Assembly (NCBI GenBank): GCA_002796835.1
Contig: LUGL01000028.1
Location: forward strand, 165-37,951
Direction of reading: 5' to 3'
DNA length: 37,787 nt
DNA from: Elainella saxicola E1
Lineage (GTDB): Bacteria; Cyanobacteriota; Cyanobacteriia; Elainellales; Elainellaceae
The notes beneath the pieces are model-generated. The model was given only the letters and a program-made list of their open reading frames with translations, did not search any database and was not told where the DNA came from. Position numbers and translations under genes: made by a program. Shown one piece after another: positions 3,757 to 37,787 of this stretch. The stretch's first letter is position 1. Every line of letters starts with the position of its first letter.

Positions 3757-3772
3757 ATCAACTAAAACTGTC

Positions 3773-3802
3773 AGCCATGTTCCTTCAAGGGCATGGCTTT
3801 TT
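3773..3802 (+). terminator. intrinsic terminator of the PTPA-CTERM gene
   Basis: AGCCATG (3773-3779) pairs with CATGGCT (3792-3798) and runs directly into TTTTT (3798-3802), 17 bases past the stop codon. Confidence 0.7.
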
Positions 3803-4254
3803 AGGCATGGATCTAAACACAATTATTGCATCATGTTTGTGAATCCTTTGCGCCTGGACAAGAATGACAATCTTTGATTCCATCACTGATCTAAATCAAA
3901 TAAATCAGAACAGGTTTGTAGCAGCCTTCGGCGCTGTGTTTGAAGTGAACCATGCAATTGCAGCCCAAGTTTGAGACCAACCGTTTTAAGGTGTCGATCA
4001 TCTATATGAGGGCGTTCAATATTCTCCTGTGTCGATCAGGTTTAAGGCGCTGCAAATTCCCCAGGTTTCGAAATTTGTGTAGGGTGGGATTTGAGATACC
4101 TGCCAGGGAGAAGTGGATTCGATGAAATCAGACTGCATTTTGCTGGGAGAAACTTCCAGAATCAAAGCTGCTCAGACGCTACTAGAGTCTCATCCTATAA
4201 ATTAATCAAAGAATTCGCTATTGATTCTTCAATCAATTCATTTCTGTGAATCCA
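3803..4254. other. intergenic stretch without a visible gene
   Basis: I find no frame with protein-like composition on either strand here. It separates the plus-strand PTPA-CTERM gene from the 3' end of the minus-strand SWIM-associated block. Confidence 0.5.
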
Positions 4255-5376: not shown

Positions 5377-5377
5377 C

Positions 5378-7171: not shown

Positions 7172-7212
7172 ATTTGTTGTTTAGGATCGTGAATTGAATA
7201 AATCCGCGAATT

Positions 7213-7278
7213 GTACGGGCGGGTTGAGCAGATCAATCTGCATCTTGTAATGGATTTGATAGCAAAACCCGCCCCTAT
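7213..7278. repeat. small interspersed inverted repeat (GGGCGGGTT type)
   Basis: GTACGGGCGGGTT (7213-7225) pairs with AACCCGCCCCTAT (7266-7278), 11 of 13 positions, around a 40-base middle. Arm core and size match the element at 1277-1342. It occupies most of the gap between the 597-residue gene and ccbP, so these may be separate transcripts or the hairpin may shape a shared mRNA. Confidence 0.6.
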
Positions 7279-7309
7279 CCAATATCGAACTTAATTTAAT
7301 TCTCATTCC

Positions 7310-7687
7310 TTACCCAAATTCATATCCTTGTTCCATCCAATAGTGCCAATCTCCGATCGCTTCTTCAGTTTCCTCATCCACATCAATTCCTTCGATCTGA
7401 ACCAGAGGCACTGCCAGCTCTCGATCCATCCAGCGGATAACGACAAACATCTCTCGCTCACTCTCATCTTCAGGAGCCATTGAAATGACTTCCACCACTT
7501 CCTTGAGCTTCAAGGGAGAGACTTTGCGTTCTAGAATGCACTTGCCTTGAAAGGGGAAGCTGATCTTATCGTCGAGGTAGTAGTACCATCCCATTGCCTG
7601 CTCTTCTGGACCATAGGCATCAACGACTGCTTCCATCGTGATCCGGTTTTCCCGATCTTCATCTCTTTGAGCTTTTTTCTTCGGCAT
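7310..7687 (-). CDS. ccbP: CcbP-family calcium-binding protein
   Basis: A 125-residue acidic protein matching the Calci_bind_CcbP family: RDEDRENRITMEAVVDAYGP, then the signature MGWYYYLDDKISFPFQGKC, a basic linker (RKVSPLKLKE), and a beta segment with MAPEDESEREMFVVIRW and LAVPLVQIEG. The family is known from Anabaena, where CcbP buffers calcium and is degraded during heterocyst formation. After the domain there is an extra acidic tail (IDVDEETEEAIGDW) that may add calcium sites. The start ATG 7687 has AGAGG seven bases upstream. Its place between the helical proteins and the SWIM gene, all on the same strand, is noteworthy; whether calcium has a role in that set cannot be told from sequence. 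Confidence 0.85.
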   Translation of the reverse strand: MPKKKAQRDEDRENRITMEAVVDAYGPEEQAMGWYYYLDDKISFPFQGKCILERKVSPLKLKEVVEVISMAPEDESEREMFVVIRWMDRELAVPLVQIEGIDVDEETEEAIGDWHYWMEQGYEFG

Positions 7688-7789
7688 AATACAACCTCTG
7701 ACTGAAGTTACCGCGAATTATAAAAGTTATCGGATGGATTGTGATTCGATCGATCGAGAGAATTAATGATGCTGACGAACTACCGCACC

Positions 7790-9553: not shown

Positions 9554-9830
9554 CACCGATTCCCCTGAAAGTTTTAAGCTACCGTAGTTCCAGTCTTAGG
9601 CAAAATCTTACCTGCTCTAGAGCAGAGAGTAATACTTAGGATCATAGATTAAATAATGTGTAATACTTCCATTTACCTTCCTGGACGCGAGATAGCAATC
9701 AACGCCACGAGGCCGGACAACTCTTCAAACCCAGAACTTGATGTTGCGCGATCGTTCAGAATGGTCAATTGGGCGCTAACATTCAAATATCTGCCCCGCT
9801 TATGAGTAGCGATCCCGCTCTTTTTACGGT

Positions 9831-21747: not shown

Positions 21748-23349
21748 TTACACTACTTCACTCGGCGATCGAGTTTCCTGCCATATATGCATGCGTATCG
21801 GTAACTGGACTGTGAAGACTGACCCCTGCCCCAATCCGGGGCTAGTAGCCTGTATTGTGCCGCCATGTAATTCAATCAGATGTCGCGTGGTCGCTAAACC
21901 CAGTCCTAACCCGCCTTGGGTCCGGGTGATTGAACCGTCGGCTTGTCGAAAATACTCAAATACATGGGGTAAGAAATCTGGTGCAATGCCAATGCCAGAG
22001 TCAGCCACCTGAATTTGGAGAGAGCCCCCATTGGATTGACAGCGAATCATAACCCATCCCAAGGGTTTGGTGAACTTGATGGCATTCGACAGTAAATTCC
22101 ATAACACCTGTTGCAGTCGATCGGGATCGGCCAGAATGTAATCGATGAGTGGGTCTAAAGCCAGATCAATCAGAATCGATTTTGCTTCGGCTGCCGGACG
22201 CAGGGCCTCAACCGTTGCCTGGATTAAGGCAGTTACGTCCACTGGTCGGATATGGAGTCTCACCTGCCCTCGAATCATTCGAGAAATATCCAGCAGGTCT
22301 TCGATCAATTGAGTTTGAAGCTTGGCGTTACGCTCGATCGTATCCAAAGCTCGTTGCAGGATTGGACCGTTGAGATTGCCCTTCTGGATCAGTTTGCTCC
22401 AGCCGACGATCGCGTTTAAGGGAGTGCGTAGCTCATGGGAAAGCACGGCTAAAAACTCATCTTTAATGCGATTTGCCGCTTCTGCACTGACCCGAGCCGC
22501 TTTTTCCTGTTCTAATAAAGCTAAGCGTTGGGCTTCAATCTGTTTATGTACCCGGTTGTCAACGCTGGTCATCACCACTCCGTAGACATTGTCTTCTGCA
22601 TCATGTAACGGAGCCAATGACAAACTGATATCAATCAGACTGCCGTCTCGCCTCACATGCTGGAACTCCTGGTTAGAAATGCGGTAGCCCTGCAAAGCCT
22701 GAGTCAGGCAGTGATTAAAATATTCCTGCTGCGTTTCTGGAATTAGCGACAAAGGGCTATCCACGACAGCATTGGCTGGCCAACCATAGAGCTGTTCGGC
22801 AGTTGTATTCCAGGTCATCACCCGTTGCTCGCGGCTGAGCGTAATGATCCCCACAGGTGAGGCATCGACGATCGCCCGCAGCAAGTTATCGGTTTGTTGC
22901 AGCGCCCTGGTGATCTGCTGACGTTCTTGACGCTCATGGCTTTCTCGCAGTGCTCGTTGAACGGCGGGTGCTAATCGATCTAATCGCTGTTTTAAAACAT
23001 AATCCGTTGCACCCTGCTTCAGGGCGTCGATCGCCTGCTCTTCCCCTAACACGCCCGATACTAGAATAAACGGCACTTGAGGACAAATCGTTTTCGCCAG
23101 TTCCAAGGCTGCAATGCCATCGAATCTCGGCAAAACATAGTCTGCCAGAATCAGATCGGGAGGCATCGTCTCTAGGCATTTCAAAAAATCCTGACGATCG
23201 GCAGCCCAGACAAATTGACCTTCGATTCCGCTATTTCTCAGGGCTGCTTCAATCAGTTCACAGTCTACTGGATCATCCTCTAATAATAAGATGTGCAGCG
23301 TTGAGGTAGATGAGTAAACTGGAGCTGTAGCATTGATGAAGAAACGCAT
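21748..23349 (-). CDS. REC-PAS-histidine kinase hybrid (533 aa)
   Basis: Domains in order: a receiver (about 17-140) with LLLEDDPVD, phospho-acceptor D70 in LILADYVLP and K120; a PAS domain (about 150-268) with NTTAEQLYGW; a coiled linker; the dimerisation/phosphotransfer domain with H305 in VLSHELRTP; and a HATPase_c domain with N422 (N box), DSGIGIAP and GGLGLGLATT. All catalytic residues are present. It is a soluble kinase with an N-terminal receiver, so it probably receives phosphate or a signal from another kinase and relays it. The receiver closely matches that of the kinase at 35640 (LKQGATDYVLKQRL and VQRALRE in both). It is the last gene of the minus-strand signalling run, 201 bases after the previous gene. 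The start ATG has no good ribosome-binding site. Confidence 0.93.
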   Translation of the reverse strand: MRFFINATAPVYSSTSTLHILLLEDDPVDCELIEAALRNSGIEGQFVWAADRQDFLKCLETMPPDLILADYVLPRFDGIAALELAKTICPQVPFILVSGVLGEEQAIDALKQGATDYVLKQRLDRLAPAVQRALRESHERQERQQITRALQQTDNLLRAIVDASPVGIITLSREQRVMTWNTTAEQLYGWPANAVVDSPLSLIPETQQEYFNHCLTQALQGYRISNQEFQHVRRDGSLIDISLSLAPLHDAEDNVYGVVMTSVDNRVHKQIEAQRLALLEQEKAARVSAEAANRIKDEFLAVLSHELRTPLNAIVGWSKLIQKGNLNGPILQRALDTIERNAKLQTQLIEDLLDISRMIRGQVRLHIRPVDVTALIQATVEALRPAAEAKSILIDLALDPLIDYILADPDRLQQVLWNLLSNAIKFTKPLGWVMIRCQSNGGSLQIQVADSGIGIAPDFLPHVFEYFRQADGSITRTQGGLGLGLATTRHLIELHGGTIQATSPGLGQGSVFTVQLPIRMHIWQETRSPSEVV

Positions 23350-23364
23350 CCGATCGCACCAATT

Positions 23365-23377
23365 AACAATTATTGTT
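23365..23377. promoter_or_regulatory. palindrome upstream of the REC-PAS-kinase at 23349
   Basis: AACAAT-T-ATTGTT is a perfect 13-base dyad centred about 22 bases upstream of the start codon. It is AT-rich and may overlap a promoter or an operator; no regulator can be named. Confidence 0.25.
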
Positions 23378-23550
23378 TATTAATTTATCGATATAGCTGA
23401 CAAACCCGAAAGCCGGGGTTAACAAACCCAATATTAAGAAAATTATCGTGCTTCTTCCTCTACCGTAAGATGGAGATATCGAGATCTTCAGGCTGCTATT
23501 GACTCAACCTGGGTGAGTTTTTGGGTCTACAGCTCCCATTTCCCTATCAC

Positions 23551-25080
23551 TCAGTATTTTTGAACTCCTGGGTCAGAATTGGTGAAGGGCAAGGCAAAGT
23601 AGAAAGTTGCCCCTGCACCCAACTTCCCTTCTGCCCAGAGGCGACCACCATGTCGATGGATTACTCTCTGAACATTGGCGAGCCCAATCCCAGTTCCATC
23701 AAATTCTTGAGCATTGGGAAGCCGCTGGAAGACGCCAAACAAACGCTGGGCATCATTCGGATCAAACCCAATGCCGTTGTCGCACACAAAGAAAATAATT
23801 TCGTCTTCGGTTGACCAACTGCCAATGACAATTTCTGTCTGTTCCTGTAACTGAGAATATTTCACCGCATTCTCAATTAAGTTTTGCCAAACTTGCCGCA
23901 GCAAATTTCGATCGCCCCTGACGGAAGGCAACGATTCGATCTGCCATTGTACAGTTCGACCGACTAGCTGAGGCTCAACCTGTCGTCTAGCTTCTTGAAC
24001 CAGCCGCTCCATATTGACAGTCGTATACTGCATTTCAGCCCGTCCCGTTCGGGAGAATTGCAGGAGATCATCAATCATGCGACCAGCCCGATCGGTAAGG
24101 GTATTAATTTGCTGCAGATAATGGAGCGCTGATGGATTGAGTGCAGTAGGTTGAAGTTGCTGCCTGAGCAGAGAGACAAAACCATCAATCTGACGAATCG
24201 GAGTTCGCAGGTCATGGGAGACTGAGAAAGCAAACATTTCCAGCTCTCGATTCAGCATGGCTAACCGATCGGTGCGTTCTGCAACCCGTTGTTCCAGCGT
24301 TTGGTTGAGCGATCGAAGTTCAGCCGCTGCCTGCTTCTGTTCAGTAATGTCAATCACTAAGCCATCCACTGCGAGGCGACCATTAAGTGAGACAACCGTT
24401 TCGCTAATTTGAAACCAGTGCCATTTTCCAGATTGGTTTAAACGGAGCTCTCGCTGCCATTGCGTTTGTTCTAATTGTTCCTGATCCGACTGTTCCTGAA
24501 TCGCAGTTTGAACCAGATGCGCTTGAAAAAATGCCTGCGCTTCGGAGAAAGACGGGAGGTTAAATAGTTGCAGCAACCCATCACTCACTTCCAGGAGTTG
24601 CCCATCCAAGGTGGCGCGAAACACCCCCACTTGCAGCTCATTCAGCAAAAACTGTAATCGCAATTCCAGCTCTGAGGCTTTGCGTCGAATTTGAGTATTC
24701 TGCCAAACTGAGCGCACTGCTTGACTGAGGCGAACAAAATGTCTGGGTGATTTTATGACATAGTCATCCAGGCCCGCTTTCATCGCTTCTACTGCAATTT
24801 CTTGCGTCCCAGAATTCGTAAACATAATAATTGGGCAATCAGGATTATGAGCTTTGACGGCGTATAAAACATCTAATCCAGTGGTCCAGTTCAACTCATA
24901 ATCTGTGATAACGAAATCAAAGGCATTACTCGCAAACGCCCGCTCAAGCTCACTCCAATCTAGGGCTTCCTGAATTTGAATGTGAGGAAACGCCCGCTTG
25001 AGCTCTCGTACAATGAGTAGCCGATCGTCTGGATTATCTTCGATTAATAGAATGCATTCTAGCGATTGCTCTAACGCCAT
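23551..25080 (-). CDS. REC-PAS-histidine kinase hybrid, phytochrome-type kinase core (509 aa)
   Basis: Domains from the preferred ATG 25080: receiver (about 8-130) with ILLIEDNPDDR and D60 in VITDYELNW; a PAS-like domain (about 140-250) ending DITEQKQ; a coiled coil with the repeat LNQTLEQRVAERTDRL; DHp with H289 in FSVSHDLRTPIRQIDGF; HATPase_c with N404 in WQNLIENAVKYS, CDNGIGFD and GTGIGLANVQ. The kinase core is of the type found in bacteriophytochrome-linked kinases, which often pair with Rcp1-like response regulators. Such a regulator is encoded directly upstream on the same strand (25156-25611, 75-base gap), a good candidate partner. The longer frame to 25092 needs TTG. Confidence 0.92.
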   Translation of the reverse strand: MALEQSLECILLIEDNPDDRLLIVRELKRAFPHIQIQEALDWSELERAFASNAFDFVITDYELNWTTGLDVLYAVKAHNPDCPIIMFTNSGTQEIAVEAMKAGLDDYVIKSPRHFVRLSQAVRSVWQNTQIRRKASELELRLQFLLNELQVGVFRATLDGQLLEVSDGLLQLFNLPSFSEAQAFFQAHLVQTAIQEQSDQEQLEQTQWQRELRLNQSGKWHWFQISETVVSLNGRLAVDGLVIDITEQKQAAAELRSLNQTLEQRVAERTDRLAMLNRELEMFAFSVSHDLRTPIRQIDGFVSLLRQQLQPTALNPSALHYLQQINTLTDRAGRMIDDLLQFSRTGRAEMQYTTVNMERLVQEARRQVEPQLVGRTVQWQIESLPSVRGDRNLLRQVWQNLIENAVKYSQLQEQTEIVIGSWSTEDEIIFFVCDNGIGFDPNDAQRLFGVFQRLPNAQEFDGTGIGLANVQRVIHRHGGRLWAEGKLGAGATFYFALPFTNSDPGVQKY

Positions 25081-25155
25081 GAAATTATGCAAAAGCCCAC
25101 ACTAAAAGCCCTATATTCACTTTTTACGCAGTCATTGTTTATTTTTGCATGCAAT

Positions 25156-25611
25156 CTAACCCATTGATATGAAAGGATACTCATTGAGCTGCAGCCAATA
25201 GCTATCCAGTGCTGCCAGCATTTGAGTCAGCGCATCAAACCTAACAGGTTTTACCAGATAAGAATTCACCCCTAAGTCGTAAGAAAGATCAATATCTAAC
25301 CTCTCGCGTGAGGATGTTAATACGACAACCGGAATTCGCTTCACGATGGGCTGCTGTCTGCGCCATTCCAAAATCTCAATGCCAGAACGGCGAGGTAGCT
25401 TCAAATCCAGCAGAATTAAACCGGGCAAGGGGTAGCGATCGCGATCGGCATATTCCCCCAGGCCAGAAAGATAATTGACGGCAGCATCCCCATCTTTGAC
25501 AATATAAATGGGGTTAATGACATTGACTTGGCGAAACGCCCGCTGCACAAACAAAACATCATTGGAGTTATCTTCAACGAGCAAGATACTACATCCGTTC
25601 TTGTCCATCAT
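25156..25611 (-). CDS. CheY-like single-domain response regulator, Rcp1-type
   Basis: A 151-residue stand-alone receiver: SILLVEDNSND (acidic pair), phospho-acceptor D69 in LILLDLKLPRRSGIEILEW, switch Thr/Ser in VVVLTSSRER and K121 in YLVKPVRFD. The LDLKLPRRSGIEILEWRR stretch is typical of Rcp1-like regulators that work with phytochrome-type kinases. There is no output domain, so it must signal by protein contact. Its ATG pair (25611, 25608) overlaps the stop of a doubtful 90-codon frame. The kinase downstream on the same message (25080) is the likely partner. A GTA-N8-TAC palindrome lies about 215 bases upstream. Confidence 0.92.
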   Translation of the reverse strand: MMDKNGCSILLVEDNSNDVLFVQRAFRQVNVINPIYIVKDGDAAVNYLSGLGEYADRDRYPLPGLILLDLKLPRRSGIEILEWRRQQPIVKRIPVVVLTSSRERLDIDLSYDLGVNSYLVKPVRFDALTQMLAALDSYWLQLNEYPFISMG

Positions 25612-25880
25612 TGACTCAGAAGCCCCATTGTCTTCAAAATTTCTAATCTGAAACTTGCTAACTGATCACTCGCAAGTCGGCCTTGCTGTTCCGTCAACTT
25701 GAATAAAGTCATCTGTCTGATGTGCAGCCACCCACCGCTTAGAGAACCGCTTGTGCCAGAGAAACTCTTGTGGAAGTGGTCATGAACTTCATCATTCACT
25801 ATGCCATAGCTTACCAGAACACTGGGTACGCTAGCGTACTGATGGAATGTTTTTGATATCGTCAGTTGGTATATCCTCAA
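25608..25880 (-). CDS. doubtful 90-codon frame between Crp2 and the response regulator
   Basis: This frame exactly fills the gap: its TTG start overlaps the Crp2 stop (TTGA) and its stop overlaps the regulator's start (ATGA). The C-terminal third (MTLFKLTEQQGRLASDQ...) looks protein-like, the rest does not, and I recognise no family. The gap also contains the palindrome at 25826-25839, which argues that it is a promoter region instead. I list it because the double overlap is striking, and would not rely on it. Confidence 0.2.
   Translation of the reverse strand: MRIYQLTISKTFHQYASVPSVLVSYGIVNDEVHDHFHKSFSGTSGSLSGGWLHIRQMTLFKLTEQQGRLASDQLASFRLEILKTMGLLSQ
25826..25839. promoter_or_regulatory. 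14-bp palindrome of GTA-N8-TAC type (candidate Crp-family/NtcA operator)
   Basis: GTACGCTAGCGTAC is a perfect dyad and fits the NtcA consensus GTAN8TAC. It lies 38 bases past the Crp2 stop and 215 bases before the response-regulator start. A TAN3T sequence (TAAGCT) occurs 12 bases downstream on the minus strand, closer than the usual 22 or so, so a classical NtcA-activated promoter is not clear. Confidence 0.45.
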
Positions 25881-26614
25881 TCGGTTTGAATGCTAAGCAG
25901 GCGATCGTACTCCGATCGCACAATGCTGTAGCACTTGCAAGCAGCTAATTCCAGCGCCTGACGATGCAAGATTTGAATACATCCCCGGTTGTAGTGGATC
26001 AGTCCGGCCTGTTGTAAAGCTCCGGCAGCTACAGTAATGCTGGCTCGTCGGGTGCCCAACATGGTGGCGAGAAAGTCTTGGGTGAGTCGCAAAGTGGCCG
26101 ATCGAGCAAAATCCTGCGATTGCAACAGCCAGCGGGCTAACCGTTCTTCAATCGAATGAAATCGATTACAGGCCGCAGTCTGACTGACTTGAGCAAGGAG
26201 GGCTTGGGTATAGCGCAATAATAGCTGTTGTAAAACCCCACCGCGATTAAATTCCACCTTTAGAATATTCGCATCTAAGGCAATGGCAGTGCCGCCAATT
26301 TGCACAATCGCACGACTGATTGTCGATTCTCCCGTGAGATAAGCAGCATAGCCAACGATGCCGTCATTTCCGATAATCCCTGCCTCGATCGTTGAACCGT
26401 CTTCCATGATTTGCACCAGCGAAATCATCGATTGATTGGGAAAATAAACAGTCGTGATCGGCTCCCCTGGCTCATAGAGAATCTGTCCCAACGTCAAATG
26501 ACTTTCTCGTAAATGGGGGGCTAAGCGCAGATAATCAACTTTTGGTAAGGTCGCCAGCAAATGATTGAGCGGTTGGAATGAGTTGAGTGAATGTTTGGGC
26601 TGAGGCTGATTCAT
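25877..26614 (-). CDS. Crp/Fnr-family transcription regulator (second of tandem pair)
   Basis: A 245-residue regulator. The N-terminal cyclic-nucleotide-type beta-barrel (about 20-130) reads LATLPKVDYLRLAPHL, LGQILYEPGEPITTVYFP and GIIGNDGIVGYAAYL. A long dimer helix follows, then a winged HTH (LTQDFLATMLGTRRASITVA). The end has the Cys pair ACKCY common to this subgroup. The pocket lacks an obvious RxSA-type cAMP-binding stretch, so the ligand is unclear. It overlaps the upstream paralogue by four bases (ATGA), so they are co-translated. Similar length and the same motif order show an old tandem duplication with clear divergence. Confidence 0.92.
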   Translation of the reverse strand: MNQPQPKHSLNSFQPLNHLLATLPKVDYLRLAPHLRESHLTLGQILYEPGEPITTVYFPNQSMISLVQIMEDGSTIEAGIIGNDGIVGYAAYLTGESTISRAIVQIGGTAIALDANILKVEFNRGGVLQQLLLRYTQALLAQVSQTAACNRFHSIEERLARWLLQSQDFARSATLRLTQDFLATMLGTRRASITVAAGALQQAGLIHYNRGCIQILHRQALELAACKCYSIVRSEYDRLLSIQTD

Positions 26615-27354
26615 GGTGATTGGCGATTAACATTTAACGAAATAGTCTGGCTAATATTCTGGATGCGCGCTTGCTCACGACGCAGCAACTCATAGCAACT
26701 GCAGGCGGCTTGTTCTAAAGCAGGACGATCGAGAATTGTAATTTCCCCCCGTTTATAGCGAATCATTCCCTGTTGCTGGAGATGTCCGGCAGCTTCTGTA
26801 ATGGTGGCGCGACGAGTTCCTAGCAGGGTTGCCATGTAGCGGTGAGTTAGAAGTAAACTATCTTGCTGTAGCCAATCTTGAATGGCTAAGAGCCAACGGG
26901 CTAAACGCGGCTTAGCGAGGTGGTTTGCTTGGCATGCGGTATTCTGAACGGTTTGAGTCAAAAATAGCTGAAGATAAAGCAATATCTGTTTTTGTAAAAT
27001 TTCCCCCCGCTCAAATTCTGCTTTCAACACCTGAGCATTGATTTTCATGGCTCCATCTGCCACCTGGACGATCGCCCGATGAATGGTCGTCTCTCCACCC
27101 AATAGTGCTGGAAGTCCGACGAGGCCTTCATTTCCAATTAATCCAAACTCTGTGGGCGAGTGATTGACCGAACTCGCTAACGCAACTAGCGCATTCAGGG
27201 GAAAGTACACATACTCGATCGGTTCTCCCGCCTTGTAAAGCTCTTGCCCTAAAGGGAGAGAAACTGGCTCCAGGTGAAGACACAGACGCTCGAATTCTGC
27301 GGTCGGCAGCGAGGCCAGAAGCCGATTTTGTAAAGCTAGATCAGGATTTGACAT
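26611..27354 (-). CDS. Crp/Fnr-family transcription regulator (first of tandem pair)
   Basis: About 247 residues from ATG 27354 (MSNPDLALQNRLLASLPTAE). A GTG at 27402 would add 16 residues; neither start has a strong ribosome-binding site. The sensor barrel contains LGQELYKAGEPIEYVYFPLN and GLIGNEGLVGLPALLGG, the dimer helix follows, and the HTH is LTHRYMATLLGTRRATITEA, with a C-terminal ACSCY. Only this gene and its overlapping partner have DNA-binding output in the whole signalling island, so they are the likeliest transcriptional end-points of it, though no direct link is shown. A near-perfect GTA-N8-TAC palindrome 150 bases upstream suggests autoregulation or NtcA control. Confidence 0.92.
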   Translation of the reverse strand: MSNPDLALQNRLLASLPTAEFERLCLHLEPVSLPLGQELYKAGEPIEYVYFPLNALVALASSVNHSPTEFGLIGNEGLVGLPALLGGETTIHRAIVQVADGAMKINAQVLKAEFERGEILQKQILLYLQLFLTQTVQNTACQANHLAKPRLARWLLAIQDWLQQDSLLLTHRYMATLLGTRRATITEAAGHLQQQGMIRYKRGEITILDRPALEQAACSCYELLRREQARIQNISQTISLNVNRQSP

Positions 27355-27504
27355 GGATGAAACGCCATGAACGCTATAAAAATTTTCGAGAGGAACAAAC
27401 ACTGGATTTAGTGCTGATCGACGAGATTTTTATGGTGATCAATTTCTATGGAGCTTAGGTTAAAGGATTTTGCTGACAATGGAATCCCGCTTAAGATAGA
27501 CTTG

Positions 27505-27518
27505 GTACGATAGCGTAC
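27505..27518. promoter_or_regulatory. 14-bp near-palindrome of GTA-N8-TAC type upstream of the Crp pair
   Basis: GTACGATAGCGTAC differs from the perfect palindrome at 25826-25839 by one base and also fits GTAN8TAC. It lies in the 181-base gap between the PAS-PAS kinase stop and the first Crp gene, about 150 bases before its ATG. TATCTT starts six bases downstream on the minus strand. Confidence 0.45.
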
Positions 27519-27535
27519 AGGCGAACATTGGCTAC

Positions 27536-29455
27536 TTAACCAGGCGGTAGCTCGATCCAGAACCGGCTGCCCTGATCAGGCGTAGATTCCACCCCCACTT
27601 GGCCACCGAGTCGCTCAACCCCTCGCTTCACGATCGCCAATCCTATCCCTGTTCCCGGATAAGCTTCTACACCATGCAACCGCTCGAATGTTCGGAAAAT
27701 TCGCTGTTGATGATGATTGGCAATACCAATGCCGTTATCTTCAACCCAAATCCGCGTTCGTTCCAAATTTACACCTAAACGCTCGCCTGGGTGTATTTTT
27801 CGTTCTGCCCAAATCTGAATCTGAGGCTGTCTATCAACTGCCACAAATTTCAGGGCATTGTCAATCAAGTTGCTCAATACCTGTTTCAGAACGCTTCGTT
27901 GCGCATAGACGATCGGCAGATCTGACGCAATTTGTATATCTGCCTGTTTGGCTCGCAATGCTGGTTCTAGATCAGTGAGAATACTTTCCACTACAGCAGC
28001 GACATCAACGGGTTGCAAGTGCAGCTCAGCTCGTCCCAGACTACTATAAGTGAGCAAGTCCTGAATCAAAATATCCAGATGTTCAGCAGACATGGACATG
28101 CGGTGAATATATTCTTTGCCTAAATCATCTAGGGCATGACCGTAATCTTCAACCAACACTTGAGCAAATCCCTGAATCGCCCGTAGCGGTGCCCGTAAAT
28201 CATGAGCCACCGAATAGGAAAAGGCTTCCAATTCTTGATTGGCCTCTTCCAGGGCCTGCGTGCGATCGCGAACTCGTTGCTCCAAAGTCAGGTTGAGCTG
28301 TTGCAGCGCTTGCTGGGCCTGCTGTCGGTCTTGAATTTCTCGGGTGAGTTTTTCATTGGTGATCAGAAGTTCCTTGGTGCGATCGGCCACGCGCAATTCC
28401 AGCGTTTCGTTCAGCTGCTGTAAATCTGCCTGGGCTTGCTGACGTGCGGCTTCCTGGCGCTTCCGTTCACTAATATCAGTACAGGTGCCATACCAGCGAA
28501 TAATTTGCCCTTGGGAATTCTGGACGGGTTCTGCCTTGCTCAAATGCCAAACATACTCTCCATCTGCCCGCCGCAGTCGGTATTCAGCCTCATAGCTAGT
28601 TCCCGTTGAAACAGCCTTTTGCCAATGCTGTAGCGCTGTTGCCACATCATCTGGATGCATCACAGATAACCAATAGTTGCCCATCACGGTTGCTGGCGTT
28701 TGCCCCGTGTAGTCAAACCAGCGTTGGTTATAGTCAATCTTGGTTACTCCATCAGCCTCTGCCACCCAAACGAGTTGCGGAATCGTTTCAATCAAAGTAC
28801 GGTAGCGCTGCTCACTTTCTCGTAATGCGATCTCGATCTCTTTTAATCGAGTAATATCTCGTCCGACCGATTGACATTCTACGATTCGTCCCTGTTCATC
28901 ATAAAAGCAGCGATTATGCCACTGGGTCCATCGCACTTGTCCATTGATAACCACTCGATTCTCGATCGTCACCTGAGGATTATGACAATTCATCGAGTTG
29001 ACCAAACGGGTCACTTCAGGGCGATCGGCTTCATAAATGATCGGGGCATAACTTTTGCCAATTAGGTTCTGTTTACTCAACCCGAAATACCGACAGTAAG
29101 CTTCATTGACATAAAGAATGGTCGTATCTTGCGAATAGCGGCAGATCAGTTCGGTTTGGTCTTCCAGGATAGCCCGATAGCGCCATTGCTCTTGATCAAC
29201 TTGCGCCTCGATATTGACCTGATTCGCTTCAGAAGCTTCAGAGGCTGGTTGGCCAGGGGATGGGTGATAGGACTGGTTGTGGTTATGGCAGGACAGCGAT
29301 GTCTCTGACAGTCGTGCCTGAAGCGAATGAGATGGGGCAGCCTCGATCGCCTGGATAACCCGCTTTACCCCTGTGACAAACCAAAATTGCAACAGCCGAG
29401 ATGATGCGAACGCGATATCGTTAGCGCTTTGAAGCGATACAAGCTGGGCTGTCAT
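27536..29455 (-). CDS. PAS-PAS histidine kinase, phytochrome-type core (639 aa)
   Basis: From ATG 29455, which has GGAGG five bases upstream: a 90-residue poorly structured lead, PAS 1 (about 90-205, ILEDQTELICRYSQDTTILY), PAS 2 with PAC (about 215-335, IPQLVWVAEADGVTKIDYNQ and HPDDVATALQHW), a long coiled coil with two copies of a 'LExRVxDRTxxL' pattern (about 345-410), DHp with H418 in YSVAHDLRAPLRAIQGFAQV, and HATPase_c with N533, EDNGIGIA and GTGIGLAIVKRG. No membrane segment, so it senses an internal signal. Its kinase core resembles that of the kinase at 23551. It follows the giant hybrid kinase by 63 bases on the same strand and is probably co-transcribed with it. Confidence 0.93.
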   Translation of the reverse strand: MTAQLVSLQSANDIAFASSRLLQFWFVTGVKRVIQAIEAAPSHSLQARLSETSLSCHNHNQSYHPSPGQPASEASEANQVNIEAQVDQEQWRYRAILEDQTELICRYSQDTTILYVNEAYCRYFGLSKQNLIGKSYAPIIYEADRPEVTRLVNSMNCHNPQVTIENRVVINGQVRWTQWHNRCFYDEQGRIVECQSVGRDITRLKEIEIALRESEQRYRTLIETIPQLVWVAEADGVTKIDYNQRWFDYTGQTPATVMGNYWLSVMHPDDVATALQHWQKAVSTGTSYEAEYRLRRADGEYVWHLSKAEPVQNSQGQIIRWYGTCTDISERKRQEAARQQAQADLQQLNETLELRVADRTKELLITNEKLTREIQDRQQAQQALQQLNLTLEQRVRDRTQALEEANQELEAFSYSVAHDLRAPLRAIQGFAQVLVEDYGHALDDLGKEYIHRMSMSAEHLDILIQDLLTYSSLGRAELHLQPVDVAAVVESILTDLEPALRAKQADIQIASDLPIVYAQRSVLKQVLSNLIDNALKFVAVDRQPQIQIWAERKIHPGERLGVNLERTRIWVEDNGIGIANHHQQRIFRTFERLHGVEAYPGTGIGLAIVKRGVERLGGQVGVESTPDQGSRFWIELPPG

Positions 29456-29518
29456 AGTCTCCTCCATTGAGGCAAGCGGCTGAAAGATGAAATCGAATGA
29501 ATGGATGGCTGATTGACG

Positions 29519-32500
29519 TTACGATCGCCCAGGAACAAGTGAGATTAATGCCTGGACGAGTTGTTCTGGCTCAAGCGGTTTTGTCACTTGTCGCTGAAAA
29601 CCACTGGTGATTGCTCGCTTCTGATCTTCTTCTCTGGCATAGGCCGTCAATGCGATCGCTGGAATTTTTCCGCCCCGTTCCGGGGACAACAGCCGGATTT
29701 GTTGAATCAAGCTATAGCCATCAATTTCAGGCATGCCAATGTCGCTGACCAAGGCATCAGGTTGAAAAGACTCCAGCGCTGCTAGCACTTCTGTCGCCGA
29801 GGTCACCGTCAAAACTTCAGCTCCATATTGGGTCAGTAAGACGGTTAATAACTCCCGCGCATCAAGTTCATCATCGACTGCCAGAATTCGCATCCCTGCC
29901 AAATCCAGGTCCGATCGAGAGAAATGATTAGGCTGCTGCACTTCGATCTCAGTATGCAGCAAGGGCAGGCGGACAATAAAGGTTGACCCTAATCCTTCCC
30001 CCAGACTCTCTGCCACAACGGTGCCTCCATGAGCCTCAACCAACGAACGAACGATCGCCAATCCCAGCCCCAACCCACCATATTTACGCGTGGTGGAAGC
30101 ATCTTCCTGCTGAAACGATTCAAACAGATGCGGTAGGAAATCTGGGTTAATCCCTTTACCAGTATCGCTGACGGTAATTTGGGCTTCATTCCCGACTCGA
30201 TCCAACCGAATATCGACTCGCCCCTGATGAGGAGTGAACTTAATGGCGTTAGAGAGCAAGTTCCACACCACCTGTTGAAGCCGAGCCGCGTCACCAGCTA
30301 CTTGGCCGATCGAGGTTAACTGGGGATGCAGCAGGATAGACTTTGCAACAGCAGCAGCCCTTACCGTGTCAATTGCCGACTCAATCACAAATACCAGATC
30401 GACCGGAGCCGTTGCAATCATCAGTTTGCCGCGTAGCATCTTGGCGACATCCAGCAAATCATCGATCAGTTGGGTTTGCAGTTTGGCGTTACGTTCGATC
30501 GTGGCTAGGGCCTCAGCCGTTTTGGCGGCATCAAACTTGCGGGTTTGCAAGAGCTTGGTCCAGCCCAGAATTGGGTTAAGCGGCGATCGCAATTCATGGG
30601 AGAGGATAGCCAGAAACTCATCCTTGATGCGGTTGGCTCGTTCGGCCTCGGCTCTTGCCATTTGCTCCTGGGCTAACAGTCGATCTCGCTCCAGTTCCGC
30701 CTGTTTGTTGGCGGTAATATCTCGTGAGATGGCAACGAGCTGGATGACTTCTCCAGCAGCATTCCGCAAAGGCGTAATAATGGTATCCCACCATTTGGGT
30801 GTGCCCTTGATTGTGGCACGATAGCCCTGAAACTGTCCTACATGCCCCTGTGTCGCAGCAGCAATGGCGGCTTTGGCCTTCTCATAGTCTTCTCCTTGCC
30901 AATAGTCAATCCAGGTTGTATGCAAAATAGCGTCTAGATCATCAATTTCCAAAAGACGCAATCCGCCAGTGCTAATGTAGAGAATCTCGCTATTCAATCC
31001 CAAAACCTTAATACTATCTTGCGAACATTCCAAGATACCTTCCTTTAATCCTTCACTTTGGCGTAGCGCTTCTTCCATCTGCATCCGATCGTCAATGTCG
31101 GTATTTGTGCCAAACCAACAGGCAATCTGGCCATCCTGGTCTCTAATGGGAATGGCTCGCGACAGAAACCAACGATATTGCCCATCTTTGCCGAGTAGCG
31201 GAAATGTATCTTCCCAGGGTTGGCCCGTTTCGAAGCAATGGCGCAGGTGTTGCGTCACTCGATCGACATGATCGGGATGGTGAACTTTTTGCCATCCCCA
31301 TCCCTGCATTTCTGCTGAGTTTGTGCCCGTATAGTCAAACCAACGCTGGTTATACCAGAAGATCCAACCCGTTGCGTCAGCCATCCAGGCAAATTGCGAC
31401 ATATTATCTGCCAGCGTGCGAAACCGCTCTTCGCTTTCTCGCAGGGCTTCTTCAGTCTGTCGCCGCGCTGTGATATCGCGTGAGGTGACCAGAATCTGGA
31501 CAACCTCTCCTGCTGTATTCATGATTGGAGTAATCACAACATCCCACCATTTTGGAGTACCCTTGGCCGTGCAGCAGAAACCCTGAAATTGACAGGATTT
31601 GCCTGTTCCTGCGGTTGCAACAGCCGCCTCCGCCGCTTCCCGATCGCTTCCTTGCCAAAAGCTGGCCCATTCTCCATTCAGGTAGGGACTAATATCATCA
31701 ATTTCCAAGAGGCACAGGCCGCCGGTGTTGATATAGAGCAGCCGGCCCTCCGTATCTAATACCTTGATACAGTCTGGGCTACTTTCCAACAGACGGTTTT
31801 TAAATGCTTCGCTTTGGCGTAGGGTTTCTTCTGTTTGTTTGCGATCGGTAATATCCAAGTTAATGCCGCTGAGGCGAATCGGCTCACCCTGTTCATTTAG
31901 AGTAAATCGGCCCAGCCCTAAAAGCCAGCGGACACCACGTTGCGAGTGAACAATCCGAAATTCAATTTCAAACTCAATCTCGCGTCGCTGAATTGCATGC
32001 AAGAGCTCGCGGCGGACTTGTTCCCGATCGTCTGGGTGGATGGTGTTATACCAAATCCGGAACCAGTTAGCAGCATTAGCAGTGCCCACGCCATACAAGT
32101 CGTAGTTCTCAGGGGACCAAGTGACCTCATTCGTTTGAATGTTCCAATCCCATGTGCCAGCTTTTGCCCCTGCCAGTGCCAACCTTAATTGCTGTTCGTT
32201 ATTGTGCAATGCCTCATTCGTTTGTTTACGCTCAGTAATATCTTCAGAAATACCAGCTAGACGATATATTTTGCCTGTTTCATCGAACAAGGGAAAACAG
32301 CGGCTACGCACCCAGCGAACCGTCTCATCTGCGACAATAATCCGATATTCTTGGTCAAATTGACCCGTCATCGCATGTTGCTGGAAGGATTGGACCACAG
32401 ATTCGCGATCGTCTGGATGGACGTAACTGAGCCAGACCTCAGGATTGTCCAGGACTGCTGCTGTCTGCAATCCCCATAGGCGTCCAAAGGCAGGACTGAT

Positions 32501-34354
32501 ATAGCTAAAGCGATTTTCGGTCACCTCTTTCAACCAGAACACCGCATCAATATTTTCAGCTAGTTGACGGAAACGTTCTTCGCTTTCTCGCAGGGCTTTT
32601 TCCGCTTTTTTCCGCTTGGTAATATCCATCGAGAATCCGATCATGCCGATCGGCTGATGCTGGGCATCCTGCAATAAAGAGAGTGACAGCAGGACATCAA
32701 CCTGATTGCCAGATTTATGCTGAGCGGTCACTTCTACTTCATGTTCTCCCTTTTGCTTGAGGGGAGTAATCACCTCCTGACTTAAAAAAGCATGCATTTC
32801 AGGAGAGTAGAGCATTGCCACAGATTGCCCTAAAACTTCCTCAGCCCTATAGCCGAATAGCCGCTCTGCCCCTTGATTCCACGTCGTAATGCAGCCAGTC
32901 AGATCGGTTGTGATCACCGAGTCGTGGGTCTGGGCCAGAACCTGGGCTTGCAATCGCAGGATTTCTTCGCGCTGCTTTCGATCGGTAATATCCGTGATGG
33001 TTCCGATATAGCCAATCACACGACCTTCAATGTCTCGTTCTGCGATCGCCTGTCCAACCACCCAAGAAGCTATCCCCGCAGGCGTCTGCAGTCGATATTC
33101 AGATGAAAAAGGAAGATTGAGTGCTACTGCCTGATACCATTCTGTGACAACACGATCGCGATCGTCTGGATGGATTGCATTCACCCAACCCTTACCCTTC
33201 GATTCTTCAAGAGATAAGCCTGCCAGTTCACACCAACGTGTATTTGCATATAGATTATCGCCCGATAGGCTGGTGCGAAAAATACCAACCGGAGCAATTT
33301 GAGCTAGTGTGGCATAACGTTCTTCACTTTCTCGCAGTTCAGCTTCGGCTTGCTGACGTTCAGCCAGTTCGCGCTGTGCCTGTTGATAAAGCTCTGCCTG
33401 CCGCAGGGCAATACTCACAGATGGGGCTAGCTCTTGGAGTAATTCGGTCTCTAAAGGTTGCCAGGATCTCGGTGCAGCACAATGGTGGGCAATCAATAAG
33501 CCCCAACACTGGTCGTCGCGCAGAATGGGGACAACCAAATTTGCTTTAACCTGAAACTGTTCCAGCAGCTCAACATGACAGGGTTTAATGCTGCCATTGT
33601 AAATATCTGAGATTGCTGTAACCCAACTCTGCCGATCGCCCGGTTGAGAATTGCCAGCACAATTGGAATCGGGATTGAAAGGCTCTGGACGGTAGTCAAG
33701 TGTGGTCGCGGCGAGACAGGGATCATAGATTGCAACAGAAAGCAACGATCGCCAGTCTGTCCCGACTGATTCTGCGATCACTTCACCATTGCCATCGGGA
33801 TTCAACCGAAAAAAGAGAACGCGATCGGTTTGGAGGAACTGCCGCACTTCCTCTACAGTCGTTTGCAGAATTTCCTTCAGGTCTAAGGTCTGCTGAATCT
33901 TCCGAATAATCTGGGCAACTAACCGTTCCCGTTCAATCCGCTGATGCAGTTGGGTGTGAAGTTGCACCGCTTCAACAGCCCCATTGACGGCCAAGCGTAA
34001 TTCTTGAGCAGTGAGATGGCCTTTGATTAGGTAATCCTGCGCGCCTGCTTTAATGGCCTGTACTGCGATCGCCTCGTTACTTTGCCCGGTCATCATGACG
34101 ATCGGCAAACAGAACTTTTGGACGGCAGGGTTGAGGTGATGTAAAAACTCTAGTCCATCCATATCGGGTAGGTGATGATCAAGCAAGACCGCATCGGGTT
34201 GATGTTGCTGCCAGAGCTCAAGCCCTTGTTGTCCCCAGTTGGCTTCTAGAATGGTATAAGAGTACTCAGGATCGCGTAGTAAATAGCGTCGATAAACTTC
34301 TCGGTCTTCAGGGGAGTCATCGACGATGAGGAGGGTGCGCGATAGGCGAGTCAT
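29519..34354 (-). CDS. giant hybrid histidine kinase: REC-GAF-7xPAS-HisKA-HATPase-REC (1611 aa)
   Basis: Start ATG 34354 (AAGG six bases upstream; the TTG at 34360 adds two residues). Numbering from the ATG: receiver 1 (about 8-122; D59, T89, K111); GAF (161-323) of cyanobacteriochrome type with C213 in YDPCL and C259-H260 in KPCHVELLEQFQV; seven PAS/PAC units at about 339-459, 463-586, 588-711, 716-839, 844-967, 971-1090 and 1096-1218, each ending in a DIT-like linker; DHp with H1253 in ILSHELRSPLNPILGW; HATPase_c (N1369, DTGKGIN, GGLGLGLAIV); receiver 2 (1488-1607; D1538 in VSDIGMPEIDG, K1592). It is soluble and can pass phosphate within itself. PAS 5 and PAS 7 are clear duplicates. It heads the minus-strand signalling run and diverges from the DUF1003 gene. 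Confidence 0.94.
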   Translation of the reverse strand: MTRLSRTLLIVDDSPEDREVYRRYLLRDPEYSYTILEANWGQQGLELWQQHQPDAVLLDHHLPDMDGLEFLHHLNPAVQKFCLPIVMMTGQSNEAIAVQAIKAGAQDYLIKGHLTAQELRLAVNGAVEAVQLHTQLHQRIERERLVAQIIRKIQQTLDLKEILQTTVEEVRQFLQTDRVLFFRLNPDGNGEVIAESVGTDWRSLLSVAIYDPCLAATTLDYRPEPFNPDSNCAGNSQPGDRQSWVTAISDIYNGSIKPCHVELLEQFQVKANLVVPILRDDQCWGLLIAHHCAAPRSWQPLETELLQELAPSVSIALRQAELYQQAQRELAERQQAEAELRESEERYATLAQIAPVGIFRTSLSGDNLYANTRWCELAGLSLEESKGKGWVNAIHPDDRDRVVTEWYQAVALNLPFSSEYRLQTPAGIASWVVGQAIAERDIEGRVIGYIGTITDITDRKQREEILRLQAQVLAQTHDSVITTDLTGCITTWNQGAERLFGYRAEEVLGQSVAMLYSPEMHAFLSQEVITPLKQKGEHEVEVTAQHKSGNQVDVLLSLSLLQDAQHQPIGMIGFSMDITKRKKAEKALRESEERFRQLAENIDAVFWLKEVTENRFSYISPAFGRLWGLQTAAVLDNPEVWLSYVHPDDRESVVQSFQQHAMTGQFDQEYRIIVADETVRWVRSRCFPLFDETGKIYRLAGISEDITERKQTNEALHNNEQQLRLALAGAKAGTWDWNIQTNEVTWSPENYDLYGVGTANAANWFRIWYNTIHPDDREQVRRELLHAIQRREIEFEIEFRIVHSQRGVRWLLGLGRFTLNEQGEPIRLSGINLDITDRKQTEETLRQSEAFKNRLLESSPDCIKVLDTEGRLLYINTGGLCLLEIDDISPYLNGEWASFWQGSDREAAEAAVATAGTGKSCQFQGFCCTAKGTPKWWDVVITPIMNTAGEVVQILVTSRDITARRQTEEALRESEERFRTLADNMSQFAWMADATGWIFWYNQRWFDYTGTNSAEMQGWGWQKVHHPDHVDRVTQHLRHCFETGQPWEDTFPLLGKDGQYRWFLSRAIPIRDQDGQIACWFGTNTDIDDRMQMEEALRQSEGLKEGILECSQDSIKVLGLNSEILYISTGGLRLLEIDDLDAILHTTWIDYWQGEDYEKAKAAIAAATQGHVGQFQGYRATIKGTPKWWDTIITPLRNAAGEVIQLVAISRDITANKQAELERDRLLAQEQMARAEAERANRIKDEFLAILSHELRSPLNPILGWTKLLQTRKFDAAKTAEALATIERNAKLQTQLIDDLLDVAKMLRGKLMIATAPVDLVFVIESAIDTVRAAAVAKSILLHPQLTSIGQVAGDAARLQQVVWNLLSNAIKFTPHQGRVDIRLDRVGNEAQITVSDTGKGINPDFLPHLFESFQQEDASTTRKYGGLGLGLAIVRSLVEAHGGTVVAESLGEGLGSTFIVRLPLLHTEIEVQQPNHFSRSDLDLAGMRILAVDDELDARELLTVLLTQYGAEVLTVTSATEVLAALESFQPDALVSDIGMPEIDGYSLIQQIRLLSPERGGKIPAIALTAYAREEDQKRAITSGFQRQVTKPLEPEQLVQALISLVPGRS
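33386..33874 (-). other. cyanobacteriochrome-type GAF domain (part of the giant kinase)
   Basis: The domain reads TDRVLFFRLNPDGNGEVIAE, SVGTDWRSLLSVAIYDPCL, ISDIYNGSIKPCHVELLEQF, VKANLVVPILRDDQCWGLLI and AHHCAAPRSWQPLE, the run of motifs that marks bilin-binding cyanobacteriochrome GAFs. The canonical chromophore cysteine is encoded at 33578-33580 (followed by His), the candidate second cysteine (Asp-Pro-Cys-Leu instead of DxCF) at 33716-33718. A roughly 10-residue Asn/Gly/Ser-rich insert separates the two. Confidence 0.75.
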
Positions 34355-34360
34355 GGTCAA

Positions 34361-35366: not shown

Positions 35367-35639
35367 GGAGCAGGAATTAGACAAATTGACGAATTGTAAT
35401 TTCTATAAGATAAGTATCAACATCACAATAAATCAGAACTGTTAGATCTACCTGTAGGTCAATGTTAGAAACCGCTGCCCAGTTTAAGATAGGGAGGCTT
35501 AATTAATGCGTATCAGTCGGTGATACGTCAAAACCAGCGAAGCTAAGTTCCGTCACTTTGCAAACTCGCAAAATACTTGCATAGAAGCATGGTATTTGAA
35601 CCTGTTGGTCATGTTCCATAGTTGATTTAGAGTGTGAGC

Positions 35640-37787
35640 ATGTGGCGATTTTTGCTACTAGAAGATGATGCGATCGACGCCCAACTCATCCAGCAGTTGT
35701 TGACAGCCAGCGATCTAAAATACGAGATCATTTGGGCAAGAACGCGTGCTGAATTTTTGGTAACCTTAAACTCCTCGATCGACTTAATTTTAGCCGACTA
35801 CCGTCTTCCTGAATTTACTGGGATTGAAGCCCTCAAGCTTGCGTCGCAACACTATCCTGAGATTCCCTTCATTATTGTGTCTGCCAGTTTGGGGGAAGAA
35901 TTGGCGATCGAAATGCTGAAGCAAGGAGCCACCGATTATGTCTTGAAGCAGCGCTTAGGACGATTGGTCCCCTCAGTCCAACGAGCATTGCGAGAGGTTC
36001 AGGAACGACGTGAACGCCAACAGGCTGAACAAGAACGGGAGCGGTTTCTCGCCATTAGTTCAGATTTACAAATCATCATTGGCTTTGATCATCAGGTGAA
36101 ATGGGTCAGTCCGTCATTTGAGCAAATCCTTGGCTGGACGGCCACCGAAATGATTGGGCAGCCCTGGTTCAATTTTGCCCACCCTAATGACGTTGACGGT
36201 CTGCATCAATCGGGTAGCCAAGTTCTGAGTGATGACAAGCCCTTTGCGTTTGAAAACCGCTATCTTCACAAAGATGGTTCCTATCGCTGGTTCCTCTGGA
36301 ATGTCCAGAAATATTCAGCGGAACGTCTCATTTATGGGGCTGCGGTTGATATCACCGGTCGCAGACAGGTAGAGGAAGCATTACTAGCCAGTGAAGATCG
36401 TTTTCGACTAATGGTTGAAAGTGCAAAAGAATATGCAATTTTCACCCTGGATCTGCATGGTACAATCACCAGTTGGAATTCAGGTGCTGAGCGCTTGTTG
36501 GGGTATCAAGAGGCCGAAATTGTTGGCCGTAACGGTCGGATTATTTTCGCACCAGAAGACAACGAACGAGGGGAAGCGGAACGAGAAAGGCACGTTACCT
36601 TAATGCAGGGACGAGCAGAGAATGAACGCTGGCATGTGCGGAAAGAGGGTAGCCGCTTTTGGGCCAGTGGTCTGATGATGCCGTTGCAGAATGAAGCAGG
36701 CACAACCCAGGGGTTTGTCAAAATCTTGCAAGACAAGACTGCTCAGCAGCAGGCCAATTGGCGACTACATTTGTTGTATGAGACAACCCGCGATCTGCTG
36801 GCAACTGAACAACCAATTCAGTTAATGAATAATCTATTCAATAAGCTATCCAGCCAGCTAGATTTGCAGGTTTACTACAACTATATGGTGGAGGTGATCG
36901 ATCATCGATCGGTGTTGCATTTGAGGAACTATGGGGGCTTTTCTGAGGAAGTGGCTCAATCCATTGCATCGATTGAAATGGGGCAATATCTCTGTGGCAT
37001 GGTGGCTCAAGAGCGTCGTCCCCTCATCCTCGATCGATCGCAAATTAGCACCCATCCCAACGCCCAGTTGATCTATTCAATGGGATTGACCGCCTATGCC
37101 GGGTATCCGTTAATGGCGCAAGGGCAGTTACTGGGAACGCTCTGTTTCGCGAGTTTTACCCGTACCCACTTCACTCCCGGAGAAACTGATCTGCTGCAAT
37201 CTACTTGCGAACAAATGGCCATTGCCCTTGAACGGGCTAACCTGATCACGTCAATCCAACAACAGGCCGAGCGATTGCAAGAAGCGAACCGAATTAAAGA
37301 TGAGTTCCTCGCCGTGTTGTCTCATGAACTCCGATCGCCCCTCAACCCGATTCTGGGCTGGACTCGCTTGCTGCAAAGCGGCAAATTAGATGCAAGCCGT
37401 CAAGCCGAAGCTCTGGCAACCATTGAGCGCAATGCCAAATTACAAACTCAGCTGATTGAAGACCTGTTAGACATCTCCCGGATTATGCAGGGCAAGCTGA
37501 CCTTAACCGCAACTCCTGTTAGTTTAACGTTTGTCATCTCTGCAGCAGCAGAAACAGTGCGTTTGGCAGCCGAAGCCAAGTCGATCGATCTGCAATTTAC
37601 AATTTTAGAATCTGGAGACGAAGATCAGCAGCACGGCTCAGAATCGACTTCAGTCGAACCACTTAGCCCCCTAAAATCCAAAATTCAAAATCCAAAACTC
37701 ACGGTTTTAGGTGACGCGGCCCGCTTACAGCAAGTCCTCTGGAACCTGCTCACCAATGCGGTCAAGTTCACTCCCCAAGGTGGACAA
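35640..37787 (+). CDS. REC-PAS-PAS-GAF-histidine kinase, cut by right window edge
   Basis: Open from ATG 35640 to the edge, 716 codons. Receiver 3-115 (LLLEDDAID, D53 in LILADYRLP, K103), PAS 1 about 135-240, PAS 2 about 252-370 (DITGRRQVEE linker between), GAF about 380-535 (VYYNYMVEVI, LIYSMGLTAYAGYPL), DHp with H562 in VLSHELRSPLNPILGWTRLL, and HATPase_c with N706 in WNLLTNAVKFTPQ just before the edge. The GAF lacks the CH and DxC marks of bilin binding. About 28 extra residues (from 657) sit between the DHp and the N box and include a run of heptamer repeats at the DNA level. The DHp is nearly identical to that of the giant kinase. No good ribosome-binding site is visible. A further HATPase part and perhaps a receiver lie beyond the window. 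Confidence 0.93.
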   Translation, partial: MWRFLLLEDDAIDAQLIQQLLTASDLKYEIIWARTRAEFLVTLNSSIDLILADYRLPEFTGIEALKLASQHYPEIPFIIVSASLGEELAIEMLKQGATDYVLKQRLGRLVPSVQRALREVQERRERQQAEQERERFLAISSDLQIIIGFDHQVKWVSPSFEQILGWTATEMIGQPWFNFAHPNDVDGLHQSGSQVLSDDKPFAFENRYLHKDGSYRWFLWNVQKYSAERLIYGAAVDITGRRQVEEALLASEDRFRLMVESAKEYAIFTLDLHGTITSWNSGAERLLGYQEAEIVGRNGRIIFAPEDNERGEAERERHVTLMQGRAENERWHVRKEGSRFWASGLMMPLQNEAGTTQGFVKILQDKTAQQQANWRLHLLYETTRDLLATEQPIQLMNNLFNKLSSQLDLQVYYNYMVEVIDHRSVLHLRNYGGFSEEVAQSIASIEMGQYLCGMVAQERRPLILDRSQISTHPNAQLIYSMGLTAYAGYPLMAQGQLLGTLCFASFTRTHFTPGETDLLQSTCEQMAIALERANLITSIQQQAERLQEANRIKDEFLAVLSHELRSPLNPILGWTRLLQSGKLDASRQAEALATIERNAKLQTQLIEDLLDISRIMQGKLTLTATPVSLTFVISAAAETVRLAAEAKSIDLQFTILESGDEDQQHGSESTSVEPLSPLKSKIQNPKLTVLGDAARLQQVLWNLLTNAVKFTPQGGQ
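37673..37700 (+). repeat. heptamer tandem repeat inside the kinase gene
   Basis: AAAATCC, AAAATTC, AAAATCC and AAAACTC follow one another without a gap. Short tandem heptamers of this A4-rich kind are typical of intergenic DNA in filamentous cyanobacteria. Here the run encodes part of an in-frame linker (LKSKIQNPKLT). Confidence 0.85.

Follow-up and report, generated by a model that had tools for sequence, protein, structure and literature searches.

A large kinase gene in a stretch of Elainella saxicola E1 DNA encodes a GAF domain with two cysteines, one in the sequence Asp-Pro-Cys-Leu and one followed by His, and a sequence-only reading had named this domain a candidate dual-cysteine cyanobacteriochrome photosensor whose DPCL motif and short insert between the cysteines were both unusual, so that its photocycle might be atypical. 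The locus raises two questions: whether the domain is a bilin photosensor, and what the second cysteine and the insert mean for its photocycle. By "the window" we mean the whole stretch of 37,787 nucleotides that was analyzed, and by "the window GAF" the GAF domain of this kinase. Residues are numbered from the TTG at 34360, which gives a protein of 1613 amino acids; the ATG at 34354, used in the earlier reading, gives 1611 amino acids and numbers that are 2 lower (C213 and C259 for our C215 and C261). The stretch singled out earlier, 33386–33874 (−), corresponds to residues 163–325 from the TTG or 161–323 from the ATG, and both motifs can be read in the translation as described, as D213-P-C215-L and C261-H262. 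Between them lies a third cysteine, C234, which is absent from the earlier reading.

The kinase carries a bilin-type GAF domain directly after a receiver

Pfam placed in the kinase two receiver stretches, one GAF, six PAS stretches (the PAS and PAS_4 models, six each), HisKA, and HATPase, laid out as REC-GAF-PAS(x6)-HisKA-HATPase-REC (Table 1); PHY was not among the 16 Pfam families that matched. NCBIfam gave the kinase no name, and among the 25 best matches listed, only a general PAS model was not far below its cut-off. A receiver directly before a bilin-type GAF in a histidine kinase is the arrangement of PPHK-like REC-GAF kinases, as seen both in Pfam and in the alignment with 6oap, to which the receiver and GAF were collinear over residues 2–327 (394.5 bits), apart from a gap where the insert lies.

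The earlier assignment of the domain to the cyanobacteriochrome type held up in the comparison with characterized relatives. The Pfam GAF match had an E value of 4.6e-22 for the whole protein. In the PDB, the best sequence match of the GAF was 6oap (3.2e-50), and the top chains were cyanobacteriochromes, phytochromes, or fluorescent proteins derived from these. A profile search (60 aligned rows, window GAF included) matched 6oap (3.3e-79), 3vv4 (8e-46), and 3w2z (2.3e-43); 3vv4, like 4fof, is TePixJ by the titles of the structure matches, and 3w2z is identified as AnPixJg2 in a passage of PMC11480761. When the structure model of the window GAF (mean pLDDT 81.8, pTM 0.80) was searched with Foldseek, bilin-binding proteins made up all 50 matches listed, of 398 at E <= 0.001, and its alignment with 6xhh_B gave a VIA Z of 21.6 and an rmsd of 1.8 over 163 residues. 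By sequence, fold, and Cys-His motif, the window GAF looks like a cyanobacteriochrome-type bilin domain with a candidate second cysteine. A bilin is probably at hand, because the same genome has genes matching Fe_bilin_red (four) and heme oxygenase (two) above the cut-off. Three of the four bilin-reductase matches lie within 6 kb on a single contig (C17).

Table 1. Positions in the window of the kinase gene and of the parts of its GAF domain
Feature	Position	Strand	Basis
Hybrid histidine kinase	29519..34360	-	ORF and Pfam
N-terminal receiver, residues 11-124	33989..34330	-	Pfam PF00072; collinear with 6oap
Bilin-type GAF, residues 160-319	33404..33883	-	Pfam PF01590, PDB matches, model and fold matches
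Duplicated second-Cys module, copy 1 (DPCLAATTLDYRPEPFNP), residues 213-230	33671..33724	-	Offset comparison; helix predicted over its start
Candidate second Cys C215 (in DPCL)	33716..33718	-	Cys in 34/35 clade members
Module copy 2, strongly diverged in the window GAF (DSNCAGNSQPGDRQSWVTA), residues 231-249	33614..33670	-	Alignment, model
Extra Cys C234 in copy 2, at the Phe column of DPAF	33659..33661	-	Same column Cys in L124
Canonical bilin-binding Cys C261, then His262	33578..33580	-	Cys-His in 35/35 clade members

The long cysteine spacing reflects a tandem duplication

We kept 80 of 99 confirmed relatives in genome contigs; alignment A1 holds 59 of these 80 loci, partial or distant matches being left out, and A2 is a 48-row subset. 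Across 86 aligned relatives, window GAF included, the spacing from the motif cysteine to the canonical cysteine was 28 in 52 and 47 in 26, with 27, 30, 42, 46, or 51 in the remaining 8; the spacing of 46 belongs to the window GAF and to L045. The insert was thus rightly called unusual against the commonest spacing of 28. The DPCL motif was not, since Leu follows the motif-Cys column in all 30 insert-bearing rows and in 21 of 56 others. Measured against the DXCF type, the window GAF has Asp-x-Cys, has Leu instead of Phe as the fourth motif residue, and has its cysteines 46 rather than 28 apart.

The commonest difference in spacing is 19 residues (47 versus 28). In the 23 insert-bearing rows of A1 (window GAF left out), we took the 11 residues that begin one position ahead of the motif Asp and compared them with the sequence at offsets of 8–39; the offset at which the copies matched was exactly 19 (mean BLOSUM62 24.9; best of the other 31 offsets, 1.5). 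Copies of the full 19 residues scored 19.3, a value reached by none of 20000 column shuffles (null mean −17.8, maximum 14.7); because the rows are related, these statistics test one event on many copies. The consensus is DPCLAENYLAWNRPETVSY for copy 1 and DPAFVENYIERYRQGQVTA for copy 2, and that of the single module is DPCLNENYIEPFRQGLVTV (32 rows without the insert and with DxC[FL]), to which copy 1 had a mean likeness of 26.3 and copy 2 one of 40.4. After the duplication the cysteine was kept by copy 1, and copy 2 usually reads DPAF, which has no cysteine, with YRQG kept. Tandem duplication of the second-Cys module thus accounts for the long cysteine spacing, and it looks as though a small helix with the color-tuning cysteine was duplicated long ago in this lineage.

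Domains with the duplicated module form one group

The insert was present in 23 of the 80 relatives, from Nostoc and other Nostocales, Desmonostoc, Microcoleus, Tychonema, Scytolyngbya, and one uncultured form, and a profile scan of the collected loci (reading frames >150 residues; broken or partial matches could escape) found no further carrier at 320 bits or more. A survey of 388 genomes of the class gave matches at E 1e-78 in 13, and 10 of these 13 had between them at least 13 domains scoring 347 bits or more (next score 270), a lower bound because eight candidates per genome were scored; four further genomes from the window's genus were part of this sample and showed none. With all loci merged there were 38 rows, which represent 35 distinct domains, window GAF included, and identical domains were merged in this way before residues were counted in the clade. 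Cys-His is present in all 35, and the copy-1 cysteine in 34; the exception, L041, has Phe (DPFL instead of DPCL) with Cys-His kept, and offers a natural control for loss of the copy-1 cysteine. At the level of sequence, this conservation suggests constraint on both cysteines. Ahead of the GAF, 35 of the 38 rows have a receiver motif; the exceptions are L056, L120, and L005.

In a tree from all columns, 30 carriers formed one group (100/93), L002 and L038 being the same domain. With the module columns removed, all 30 again fell together (FastTree support 0.77), as did all 35 in a later tree, there with a bootstrap of only 36. The window GAF had no firm place in one of the trees that included the module and stood beside L005 (86/60) in another; removal of the module columns placed it beside L002 (bootstrap 97).

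Two other relatives came to light during this survey. L075, which has no insert, reads DPYL and has DD in place of Cys-His, so that both cysteines are gone. L077, whose contig is labeled Chloroflexaceae (MAG), is a closely related GAF of the bilin type, there either by transfer or by misbinning.

The second copy is remodeled in the window GAF

For identities and near-invariant columns we used 29 rows, L002 being left out as a duplicate of L038. For the window GAF, mean identity to the clade members is 40% within the module and 73% in the rest of the domain, compared with 63% and 79% among the others. It departs at 2 of 10 near-invariant columns inside the module, as does L005. The window module has neither the near-invariant Tyr nor the Gly of RQG. 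Of the 81 near-invariant columns beyond the module, the window GAF differs at 6, one of them the Asp two positions ahead of the canonical cysteine, where it has Lys; among the 29 rows this is the second highest count, exceeded only in the split paralog L111 (7/79). Its end branch was 0.14 with the module columns removed, where L002, L111, L005, and L120 had 0.13–0.20 and the clade median was 0.05, and 0.33–0.35 with them in. From the identity drop and the branch lengths, we infer that the module changed faster than the rest of the domain. A frameshift was rejected as the cause of the odd copy 2: the window GAF and L111 align in the same codon frame through copy 2, and neither of the window's remaining frames yields a standard module.

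Such departures are what one might see if light sensing had been lost and a degenerating GAF were kept for folding, dimerization, or signal relay, and the same genome does have another member of the clade, the paralog L111, whose module is standard although its gene is split. We consider this loss rather improbable, as the Cys-His and the motif Asp are retained along with most of the domain, identity outside the module is still 73% against 79%, the module-free end branch, though above the median, is within the range of the four members just named, and the frame is open and unshifted.

Structure models bear on the fate of the two helices. In the model of a standard member, L031, both copies are helical (model residues 73–81 and 92–103; pLDDT <50 at 77–95). 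In that of the window GAF the first helix stays (74–81), and the second is reduced to a three-residue turn, with no helix of at least 4 residues; the block mean pLDDT is 66 at 71–80, which includes C215 (model residue 75), then 35 and 43, with values <50 at 80–92 and 96–104. Judging from the models, the window copy looks to have lost much of the second helix since the duplication. Together with the spacing of 46, this remodeling would fit displacement of C215 from C10, brought about by the duplication and by decay of copy 2; the domain would then still be a bilin photosensor, but with a single-cysteine photocycle (e.g., orange or red to green), and the closest solved relative, 6oap, has Tyr-Phe at the place of Cys-Leu. 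We nevertheless think such a displacement unlikely: a copy-1 cysteine kept in all but one of the members, across several genera, is hard to explain without a role, and the DPCL helix comes directly after a strand in both models. In ordinary DxCF domains, the helix with the second cysteine likewise comes directly after a strand.

The third cysteine belongs to copy 2, where it occupies the column next after that of the lost cysteine, and L124 has a cysteine at the same column. Conceivably, the second linkage is formed by C234 rather than by C215, or by both in alternation, which would be a further relocation of the second cysteine. We give this very little weight, since only 2 of the 35 members have a cysteine at that column, Phe to Cys takes a single base change, model confidence is low around C234, and the conserved cysteine is C215. 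Descent of C234 from an ancestor shared with L124 was not supported; L124 groups with L118 (98/94 with the module in, 98 with it removed) and not with the window GAF, and this cysteine therefore probably arose twice.

Proposed photocycle and signaling

The sequence comparisons and our analysis of them make it somewhat probable that the window GAF is a dual-cysteine photosensor (violet/blue to green-orange) that uses C215 and C261, from a lineage with a duplicated 19-residue second-Cys helix. Phycocyanobilin would be attached through C261, as the Cys-His motif implies. By analogy with characterized dual-cysteine relatives, as treated in portions of PMC5240096 and PMC11284453, the Asp of DPCL would contact the pyrroles, and a reversible bond between C215 and C10 would make the dark state violet/blue-absorbing; light would isomerize the 15,16 bond, and the adduct would break to yield a green-to-orange form. 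The signal may then pass through the long C-terminal GAF helix (model residues 162–199) into the PAS chain and the kinase, and the REC-GAF relative 6oap leads us to expect that it would be integrated with phosphorylation of the N-terminal receiver. The 6oap structure study reportedly describes a phosphorylation-or-light logic for its kinase.

Use of C215 and C261 in such a photocycle is favored by the bilin-binding best matches, the conservation of Cys-His and of the copy-1 cysteine, the exact offset of 19, the single group of carriers, the bilin-reductase and heme-oxygenase genes, and the end-to-end match of REC-GAF with 6oap. Against it count the Leu in place of Phe, the spacing of 46 rather than 28, the module identity of 40% versus 63%, the lost Tyr and Gly, the departures outside the module including Asp to Lys, the low model confidence, the existence of L041 without the copy-1 cysteine, and the weak support for the clade in one of the two module-free trees. 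The literature that we searched, which most subscription-journal papers lay outside so that absence from it is weak evidence, yielded no description of a duplicated second-Cys module, though insert-Cys domains and other relocated second cysteines are described there; nor did it yield DPYL, DPCL, DXCL, or DPCF alongside cyanobacteriochrome, or measured photochemistry for any member of the clade.

Genomic setting

In line with the signaling island of the earlier reading, the kinase heads a run of signaling genes: it is the first of seven in a row on the same strand (21748–34360), followed by a second kinase (51 bases downstream), two Crp-type regulators, a response regulator, and two receiver-kinase proteins. 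Strand and spacing suggest that the seven may form one operon. The frames of the Crp-type regulators (25877–26614 and 26611–27402) overlap by 4 bases.

Elsewhere in the window, 35634–37787 (+) encodes a second sensor kinase, with receiver, PAS, and GAF, that is cut by the window end. We rejected its GAF as a further photosensor, because the GAF region, as read in the sequence, has no Cys-His. The region 4255–14030 contains a SWIM zinc-finger protein (7790–9556) beside an SNF2 helicase (9831–14030), and two large frames (4255–5376 and 5378–7171) without a Pfam match. Given that the genome has 94 GAF-family matches, not all of bilin type, the wider setting is otherwise ordinary.

Comparison with known systems

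Where the second cysteine sits is among the main determinants of color in dual-cysteine cyanobacteriochromes, and the domains compared here form a natural series, from no duplication, through duplication with one cysteine, to a remodeled copy 2 with a further cysteine, which would let the gain, shift, or loss of a second-cysteine photocycle be tested; the clade may also offer new parts for optogenetics. Within the same genome, the paralog L111 (contig C174) resembles the window kinase in its REC-GAF-PAS start, its DPCL, and its 19-residue duplication, and differs in having a standard copy 2 (HDIAFAEEYVQRYRQG). Its gene (2234–6500) is split: the first frame ends after 658 amino acids (REC-GAF-PAS), and the second, of at least 773 amino acids from 4182, lies in another frame and holds PAS, HisKA, and HATPase, so that either the split is true or it stems from the assembly.

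The best-scoring solved relative is PPHK, a dual-sensor histidine kinase of Leptolyngbya sp. JSC-1 (6oap, 6oaq, and 6ob8), which likewise has a receiver and then a bilin GAF. PPHK has neither the second cysteine nor the insert, and the window kinase has in addition six PAS domains and a receiver at its C terminus. With the DXCF cyanobacteriochromes (TePixJ; 3vv4 and 4fof) the window GAF has in common the GAF fold, the canonical Cys-His, and Asp-x-Cys; unlike them it has Leu for Phe, a duplicated module, cysteines 46 apart, and a diverged copy 2.

A further comparison is with the insert-Cys cyanobacteriochromes NpF2164g3, NpR1597g2, Mbr3854g4, and Mbl3738g2, which, in the passages of PMC5240096 that describe them, have a cysteine upstream of a Cys-less DxYL and are assigned to the extended red/green lineage. 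As far as those passages go, they and our clade alike have a candidate cysteine, then additional residues, and downstream of these a DxCF-like segment that lacks a cysteine and reads DPAF in the clade and DTYL in Mbr3854g4; the insert-Cys cysteine is in a poorly conserved CXXR/K loop, whereas in the clade it is the DxCF helix that was duplicated, and the cysteine is in one of its copies. None of the 30 insert-bearing rows has Trp two positions ahead of the motif Asp, so the clade does not have the appearance of the extended red/green lineage. In the window GAF the segment downstream of C215 is DSNC, not DxYL, in a part where the models have low confidence, and an insert-Cys-like geometry is possible. 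We can put forward only tentatively that a clade of the DXCF lineage made its own insert-Cys architecture by duplicating the second-Cys helix, with copy 2 (DPAF...YRQG) at the DxCF place and copy 1 lending its cysteine from the added helix; the renewed remodeling of copy 2 in the window GAF would then have produced a sensor with three cysteines, in which the second linkage might move from one helix to another. If copy 2 lies over the bilin, the clade parallels the insert-Cys subfamily; if copy 1 does, its members are DXCF-like domains with an extra helix.
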